The notes beneath the pieces were generated by a model. The model was given only the letters and a program-made list of their open reading frames with translations. It searched no databases and was not told the DNA's origin. A stretch of 64,000 nucleotides of DNA from a bacterium. GTDB lineage: Bacteria > Cyanobacteriota > Vampirovibrionia > Gastranaerophilales > Gastranaerophilaceae. Where the stretch lies: positions 62,001-126,000 of the forward strand of contig JAFXXK010000006.1 of NCBI GenBank assembly GCA_017542305.1. The letters are read 5' to 3'. Positions within the stretch are counted from its first letter, which is position 1. Every line of letters starts with the position of its first letter. The translations under genes were made by a program, and so were the position numbers. Below, piece by piece: positions 29,804 through 30,071 of this stretch.

Positions 29804-29885
29804 GGGATGTGGCACTCTGCCGACGAGAAAGATTAAGTATCTTTCGAGGAGAGGAAGGTAGCGCAGCTACCGCGTCAAATCTCAA
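29804..29885 (+). ncRNA. tRNA-like repeat, copy 1
   Basis: First of two identical 82-base units (99-base period) before the CAU tRNA. GGGAT (29804-29808) can pair with ATCTC (29879-29883) like an acceptor stem (one G-T). Inside are CTCT/AGAG (29815-29818 with 29850-29853) around the hairpin GAAAGAT-TAAGT-ATCTTTC (29827-29845), and the hairpin GGTAGC-GCA-GCTACC (29857-29871). The 5' end imitates the following tRNA (GGGACTGTGGC) and the cassette replaces the D-loop, as in the element at 21554-21637. Being an RNA is inferred from structure and covariation. Confidence 0.55.
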
Positions 29886-29902
29886 TTGACAATTAAATAT
29901 CT

Positions 29903-29984
29903 GGGATGTGGCACTCTGCCGACGAGAAAGATTAAGTATCTTTCGAGGAGAGGAAGGTAGCGCAGCTACCGCGTCAAATCTCAA
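29903..29984 (+). ncRNA. tRNA-like repeat, copy 2
   Basis: Perfect copy of the unit at 29804-29885. The sequences between the units (18 bases) and between unit 2 and the tRNA (15 bases) are AT-rich and different. Perfect identity in a non-coding region implies recent duplication or active homogenisation. No -10 box is seen before this copy; a TATAAT at 29763-29768 could drive both copies and the tRNA as one transcript. Confidence 0.55.
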
Positions 29985-29999
29985 CTATCCAGTAAATCT

Positions 30000-30071
30000 G
30001 GGACTGTGGCGCAGCGGTAGCGCAGGGGACTCATAATCCCTTGGTCGTGGGTTCGAATCCCTCCGGTCCCA
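30000..30071 (+). tRNA. tRNA with CAU anticodon (Ile2 or elongator Met)
   Basis: 72-base cloverleaf: acceptor GGGACTG/CGGTCCC with discriminator A (one mismatch-type end pair), D stem GCGC/GCGC, anticodon stem GGGGA/TCCCT with loop CTCATAA, T arm GTGGG-TTCGAAT-CCCTC. Anticodon CAT. The region after the anticodon loop (TTGGTCG) resembles tRNA-Ile2, which needs lysidine modification by TilS, but elongator Met cannot be excluded. It is not the initiator type, as the anticodon stem lacks three consecutive G-C pairs in the usual place. A T6 run follows. Confidence 0.88.

Follow-up and report, generated by a model that had tools for sequence, protein, structure and literature searches.

What are the two identical repeats that precede an elongator tRNA-Met gene in the window, the 64,000-nucleotide stretch of Gastranaerophilaceae DNA analyzed here? 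An earlier note, made from the sequence alone, described them as tRNA-like units in which a stem-loop cassette replaces the D loop, and offered three guesses: a tRNA decoy, a processing guide for the tRNA, or a small mobile RNA element copying its host tRNA. The description held. The 82-nt units at 29804 to 29885 and 29903 to 29984 agree at 82/82 nt, and a tandem-repeat search gave a start-to-start spacing of 99 nt with 94% identity. The gene said to follow at 30000 to 30071 is a tRNA by Rfam (RF00005, 68.9 bits) and by ARAGORN (29999 to 30072). Also as claimed, the D-arm piece GGTAGCGCAG is common to the unit and the tRNA-Met D arm, an acceptor-like closing helix (GGGAU/AUCUC) is present in the predicted unit fold, and the anticodon and T arms are missing. 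Two points refine it: the unit does resemble the tRNA at its start, but the exact split is GGGAT-GTGGC versus GGGACTGTGGC, one base short; and replacement of the D loop is true of the commonest type of unit, whereas insertion points vary among units. The predicted RNA fold of the 82-nt unit has an energy of −29.4 kcal/mol (z = −3.11), equaled by 1 of 200 shuffled sequences.

To describe the cassette we used a covariance model, R1, whose training set consisted mainly of class A cassettes found at tRNA loci and included the cassette of unit 1 (65.4 bits). At an E value of ≤1, R1 matched the window three times only, at the two Met units and at a third unit (21554 to 21637; 48.2 bits) located before a tRNA-Pro gene at 21654. 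This unit copies tRNA-Pro and not tRNA-Met. In the window, Rfam gathering scores were reached by the two tRNAs alone, and near the units, at an E value of ≤10, tRNA was the sole credible match, all others falling below threshold. In the genome as a whole, 5 of 25 tRNA loci have convincing R1 matches nearby: those for Met, Leu-TAG, Pro-CGG, and Pro-GGG, and locus L144 with its CAT tRNA. The parts of the three units are listed in Table 1.

Table 1. Features of the three units and adjoining tRNA genes in the window (L, copied tRNA 5′ part; C, cassette; R, resumed tRNA sequence; AS, antisense segment)
Feature	Position	Strand	Evidence
L, unit 1: tRNA-Met 5′ end copied as GGGATGTGGC (tRNA GGGACTGTGGC)	29804..29813	+	Sequence comparison
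C, unit 1: class A hairpin cassette, CC-GAC-GA / GA-GG kink-turn-like core	29814..29854	+	R1 65.4 bits; covariation
R + AS, unit 1: D-arm copy AAGGTAGCGCA, antisense GCTACCGC, closing strand	29855..29884	+	Fold, sequence
boxA-like spacer motif TTGACAATTAAATA, 14/14 to TTGANAAYTNAATA	29886..29899	+	Motif scan
L, unit 2	29903..29912	+	Sequence comparison
C, unit 2	29913..29953	+	R1 65.4 bits
R + AS, unit 2	29954..29983	+	Sequence comparison
Intact elongator tRNA-Met (CAU)	30000..30071	+	RF00005, ARAGORN
L, third unit: copy of tRNA-Pro nt 1-11 (CGGAATGTAGC)	21554..21564	+	Sequence comparison
C, third unit, variant core	21565..21605	+	R1 48.2 bits
R, third unit (GGTAGCGCACCG, shared with tRNA-Pro) + hairpin CACAAAACGAAAGTTTTGTG; AS not evident	21606..21637	+	Sequence
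Intact tRNA-Pro (CGG)	21654..21727	+	Rfam, ARAGORN

A set of 141 loci was assembled, 109 of them being the matches listed by a cassette-only pattern scan (one genome per species) and 32 the product of searches with the Met unit. The cassettes matched by pattern, at 132 of these loci, follow a common plan, L-C-R-AS. L comprises the leader and the first 8, 11, or 18 to 19 bases of the tRNA; C is a nearly constant hairpin of about 41 to 47 nt, A-CTCTGCCGA...GAGAGG; and R resumes the tRNA sequence after a gap of ~6 to 8 bases. In many units AS is antisense to a stretch of the intact tRNA, that is, an inverted copy of the interrupted part; in unit 1 of the window, GCTACCGC at 29866 to 29873 is complementary to nt 15 to 22 of tRNA-Met. 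A spacer motif often follows AS, then the next unit or the tRNA, and units occur in tandem.

The earlier note had asked for covariation in the cassette and for further copies near tRNA genes, and both were found. Among 80 distinct C sequences the base is nearly invariant, while the apical stem varies with compensatory changes. In an alignment of 44 chosen sequences the apical stem covaries: columns 14 and 38 pair as GC in 18 and AU in 17, with 5 broken, and columns 17 and 35 as AU in 24, CG in 9, UA in 5, and GC in 2, with 4 broken. The 72 distinct class A stems contain 467 Watson-Crick pairs, 12 G-T versus 2 A-C wobbles, and 22 other mismatches, and the excess of G-T over A-C hints that the sense strand folds. 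Judged by sequence only, class A matches the kink-turn consensus, in which a 3-nt bulge is followed by tandem G·A pairs between two helices. The core CC-GAC-GA / GA-GG occurs in 167 of 174 strict-form cassettes, most of it demanded by the scan pattern itself; class B cassettes lack it.

The strict pattern gave 177 matches, of which 3 were dropped as unrelated, leaving these 174. Among the matches listed, every strict-form cassette with enough flank to judge (150 of 150) adjoins a tRNA gene. In 140 the tRNA lies downstream on the same strand, in 8 it lies downstream on the opposite strand, and in 2 the cassette is just behind the tRNA. The other 24 cassettes run into a contig end (<300 bases; e.g., L061, L064, and L090), as if arrays break assemblies. 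The sense hosts listed span 11 anticodons: Met-CAT (59), Leu (37, four anticodons), Pro (21, three anticodons), Lys-CTT (12), Val-GAC (10), and Thr-GGT (1). Met is favored in these counts, since searches with the Met unit supplied 32 of the 141 loci. At least 9 of 11 bases of L agree with its own tRNA in 109 of 137 testable sense units, versus 86 of 952 comparisons with tRNAs of other amino acids. The 28 poor matches include the window's own units (8/11, with a 1-nt gap) and some initiator-Met units, which copy only 8 tRNA bases. Identical cassettes of 39 to 43 nt stand beside different isotypes in different records, and one was found beside Met, Pro, Leu (three anticodons), Val, and Lys. C mostly sits in the copied D arm; in a minority of units it sits in the T arm or anticodon arm, and the unit is then antisense at the 3′ end of the tRNA.

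Several loci depart from this plan. In the window's own genome, L144 (G000 C1; locus positions 1354 to 1396) holds an antisense unit behind a CAT tRNA with a GCTC D stem; its cassette lies in the anticodon arm, and an altered antisense copy lies nearer the tRNA. A candidate D-stem rule (hosts GCGC, non-hosts GCTC) was weakened by this host and by unit-free Val-GAC genes with GCGC, which are common. Behind an intact tRNA-Pro, L025 carries the tRNA-Pro sequence twice more; both copies have terminator-like ends and are interrupted by C, in the D loop, and by further hairpins. Upstream of tRNA-Val, the repeats of L194 and L195 resemble units in having an antisense D-arm segment and a boxA-like motif, but another insert replaces the cassette. 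Between the two units of L065, inverted CCACC/GGTGG-type repeats enclose a tiny hydrophobic open reading frame (MIDKIIMLLVALTMLVVALKLHS, translated by eye) that resembles a type I toxin or leader peptide.

We then compared loci with and without units. An elongator-Met gene pattern matched 135 of 191 genomes, and 80 loci from 13 genera were taken, five of them <220 nt and at contig ends. R1 matched 45 of the 80 loci at an E value of ≤0.05, and by simple pattern both empty and occupied states occur in 10 of the 13 genera, although some "empty" loci (L234, L253, and L280) hold decayed cassettes. The alignment of empty locus L247 with occupied locus L250 starts at nt −177 and passes without a break into L (as far as nt 12; 74% identity, 193 columns); it resumes at leader nt −12 and runs through the tRNA at 96%. 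Since the flank is continuous into L and the leader and tRNA then follow again, the unit has the form of an insertion inside the tRNA, with the 5′ part and leader duplicated. Other empty/occupied pairs align less cleanly, some with decayed units. The duplicated length, estimated by eye, varies between about 11 and 45 bp and in this differs from a target-site duplication of fixed size. Because the leader and first tRNA bases are duplicated at sense sites, an intact tRNA adjoins each interrupted copy there.

The window's unit, used as a query, matched 42 of 97 related genomes. R1, with stricter filters, matched 132 of 240 genomes sampled from the class, all within one order, with up to 33 matches in a single genome; the matching genomes listed belong to the window's family, except one from another family of the same order. 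Among the titles of 80 of the at least 109 pattern matches are 47 Candidatus Gastranaerophilales, 1 Candidatus Gastranaerophilus, 2 Melainabacteria, and 1 Cyanobacteria; those reading Muribaculaceae or Acinetobacter may belong to misnamed bins. Two candidate loci, L073 and L099, were rejected as chance matches. Carriage by phages or plasmids was likewise set aside: the strict pattern was found in 0 viral contigs and the relaxed pattern in 1 (L344), where no tRNA was found, and blastn matched the window's units to no plasmid or phage.

Cassettes are not confined to tRNA genes. That they occur exclusively there holds for the strict pattern only (among the matches listed), and the covariance model revealed class B copies elsewhere. 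In three cassette-rich genomes, R1 gave 86 matches, of which 29 have a tRNA within 700 bp, 48 have none so close, and 9 are near contig starts; of the 48, at least 4 lie within ~700 bp of the far end of their contig, and one of these, at the cut locus L323, resembles a unit located at the 3′ end of a tRNA. Inspection by eye of the sequence around 31 off-tRNA matches placed all of them in class B and in repeats or repeat-like sequence. Their hosts are a GTCATTCTGA..GAAGAATC hairpin with an exchangeable tip, a MITE-like repeat, and composite repeats. In the hairpin the cassette is nested as GTCATTCTGA[C]GAAGAATC, and other copies of the repeat bear other apical hairpins (e.g., L342, L343, and L312). 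A cassette is carried both by the MITE-like repeat (loci L325 to L327), whose ends are GCAGATATTT..AAATATCTGC, and by a composite noncoding repeat (L328 to L335). In the cases studied in detail, complementary arms flank C, and for this reason we read it as a palindromic module that lodges in stem-loops.

The spacers bear on transcription. The motif TTGANAAYTNAATA is present at 13 to 14 of 14 positions in 88 of 141 spacer regions (listed loci) versus 0 of 141 shuffled regions; the second spacer in the window lacks it. In rRNA leaders of order-level relatives (L167, L168, and L169, from the 3 genomes with full-length 16S among 24 searched), it occurs at 14/14, about 105 to 120 nt before the 16S start motif, and a 16S-23S spacer contains it at 13/14. 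Genome-wide the bare pattern is no commoner than its reverse (16 versus 19), so position and not presence carries the argument. The likeness to boxA suggests that the arrays are probably transcribed. We dropped the idea that the motif is the element's own end, given close matches in rRNA leaders and before cassette-free tRNAs. In the window's genome such matches, read by eye, precede tRNAs without an upstream cassette at L144, L148, L158, and L166, some of them after a small hairpin. Promoter searches were of little use: a promoter regex matched 14 of 74 Met loci versus 7% of shuffled regions, a consensus scan around the Met units detected no promoter and no terminator, and the one promoter-like site at the Pro unit was no more than expected by chance. 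With these scans uninformative, it is the by-eye empty-site alignments that would place a promoter upstream of the first unit. These features point to long, structured leaders for some tRNAs in these genomes.

The reading we favor, and trust about as much as we doubt, is that the units are traces of a clade-specific, nonautonomous, REP-like hairpin element that nests in stem-loop arms, those of tRNA genes included. In such a scheme C would lodge in the arms of stem-loop sequences, and the surviving insertions would be those that leave an intact tRNA. Hairpin-driven template switching may have produced AS, and slippage or recombination could enlarge the arrays; the tRNA would be transcribed from its old promoter through the units, perhaps helped by the boxA-like motif. 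Of the earlier note's guesses, a mobile element copying its host tRNA comes closest, as the cassette recurs at 11 anticodons and its flanks usually copy the adjacent tRNA. The purely RNA-level guesses, decoy and processing guide, fit badly with the 8 of 150 cassettes facing an opposite-strand tRNA, the antisense unit of L144, and the off-tRNA cassettes. A Y1 transposase as a required partner was not supported: Y1_Tnp occurs in 62 of 191 genomes and is missing from cassette-rich genomes G004, G020, G184, G151, G053, and G125, while equally cassette-rich genomes G016, G142, G165, and G145 have it. Selfish insertion does not explain why, among the matches listed, the kink-turn form is seen at tRNAs only and 140 of 150 units lie upstream in sense, nor why AS fits the tRNA better than its own unit. 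Our confidence is limited in part because R1 was trained mainly on tRNA-linked copies. The same picture could also arise if old units were inherited vertically and were duplicated and lost along the way.

The leading rival, which we regard as possible but doubtful, is a cis-acting RNA switch or brake on tRNA expression, in which L and R would form a sense decoy, AS would pair within the unit or with the nascent 5′ half of the tRNA, and C would decide the state. The mean longest run of AS pairing is 7.18 with its own downstream tRNA, 5.74 with its own unit, and 5.31 with other isotypes; among 124 distinct units, AS fits the tRNA better in 73, both equally in 32, and the unit better in 19. Pairing of L with AS, however, is only modestly better for own pairs than for the same isotype (−9.65 versus −8.75; better in 69 of 119), and Leu-TAG units show no such antisense. 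Equilibrium folding, which ignores cotranscriptional folding and modification, predicted an acceptor stem probability of 0.95 for the tRNA alone, 0.15 with the unit, and 0.35 with shuffled leaders. Acceptor pairing fell below that with shuffled leaders in 62 of 97 cases and above it in 14, but Leu-TAG and Val-GAC leaders do not have this effect; T-stem pairing hardly changed in the same model (0.26 versus 0.22). The rRNA-type boxA-like motif (88/141 versus 0/141 shuffled; listed loci) and the wobble bias (12 G-T versus 2 A-C) are consistent with a switch, while 3′-side antisense units, anticodon-arm units, off-tRNA cassettes, and same-genus genomes without units at the same tRNA do not fit it. 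In these models a brake is possible, selection for one is not implied, and a tolerated passenger is equally open. Mobility and control might also be joined, a suggestion we make tentatively: a mobile hairpin settling beside a tRNA gene would make a sense decoy and an antisense of the tRNA 5′ half, and so a matched cis switch for each tRNA that traps or frees the nascent tRNA, with the kink-turn form selected as a control site.

It appears unlikely that AS is a built-in address steering a guided, target-copying element to reinsert beside the same kind of tRNA. Read by eye, AS does hold the stretch replaced by C, also in the T-arm units L308 and L310 and, in altered form, in the anticodon-arm unit of L144, but some units lack AS, which may be a by-product, and neither a partner enzyme nor a partner RNA was found. 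If tRNA 5′ ends had simply been duplicated in tandem and had decayed, with the cassette as an old immobile passenger, this would account for the near identity of units within many arrays, the duplicated leader, and the whole, interrupted tRNA copies at L025. Such a history is made improbable by the cassettes that sit in unrelated repeats and by identical ones that recur, in different records, next to different isotypes. Least probable is that the unit yields a small RNA or decoy whose task is to titrate a protein binding tRNAs or kink turns. The compact predicted fold and the core in 167 of 174 strict-form cassettes (most of it demanded by the pattern) would suit such an RNA, yet class B has lost the core and isotype-specific copying is left unexplained.

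tRNA genes tolerate insertions poorly. In this group of gut bacteria, one hairpin cassette nevertheless stands beside or in copies of many tRNAs, and an intact gene is left together with a sense and often an antisense imprint. If the REP-like element is mobile, it offers a natural system for the spread of such palindromes without a known transposase and for nesting in stem-loops; if domesticated, it would amount to tRNA-specific leader control in bacteria. Among the literature matches listed (titles and abstract openings, in part for some searches), the units are undescribed, and a hairpin element that lodges in tRNA genes with one intact copy kept is apparently undescribed as well.

Several known systems share features with the units. 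T-box leaders and other tRNA-sensing RNAs combine tRNA-related pairing in a leader with a kink turn; the units differ in lying upstream of tRNA genes themselves and have no Rfam match. Integrases that target tRNA genes leave a displaced tRNA fragment and a restored intact tRNA, whereas here the insert is ~100 bp without a gene, the copy usually covers the 5′ end and D arm, the duplicated length varies, and an antisense copy is present. Rickettsia palindromic elements and the palindromic or double-hairpin elements of organelles are, like the cassette, small palindromes that invade genes with function kept. They insert in protein genes or spacers, however, and we know of none that duplicates the 5′ part of a tRNA. 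REPs, according to PMC3733652, are short, palindromic, multicopy, noncoding sequences, of which the CGTC kind has no linked transposase and some families nest in other palindromes; the same paper mentions the Rickettsia elements (RPEs). C resembles REPs (20- to 40-bp palindromes in many copies) as an imperfect, slightly long palindrome of about 41 to 47 nt, and it nests as some of them do, in tRNA arms, the GTCATTCTGA..GAAGAATC hairpin, and the MITE-like repeat. Its ends are A-CTCTG and GAGAGG in place of a GTAG/CGTC tag, GTAG directly following GGAGAG in 36 of 174 cassettes, and the Y1 transposase (RAYT) that accompanies GTAG REPs is present in some cassette-rich genomes and absent from others. 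What sets the units apart from the GTAG and CGTC REPs and the RAYT/REPtron systems is that the strict cassette occurs at tRNAs only, among the matches listed, and that its target is copied in sense and often in antisense.
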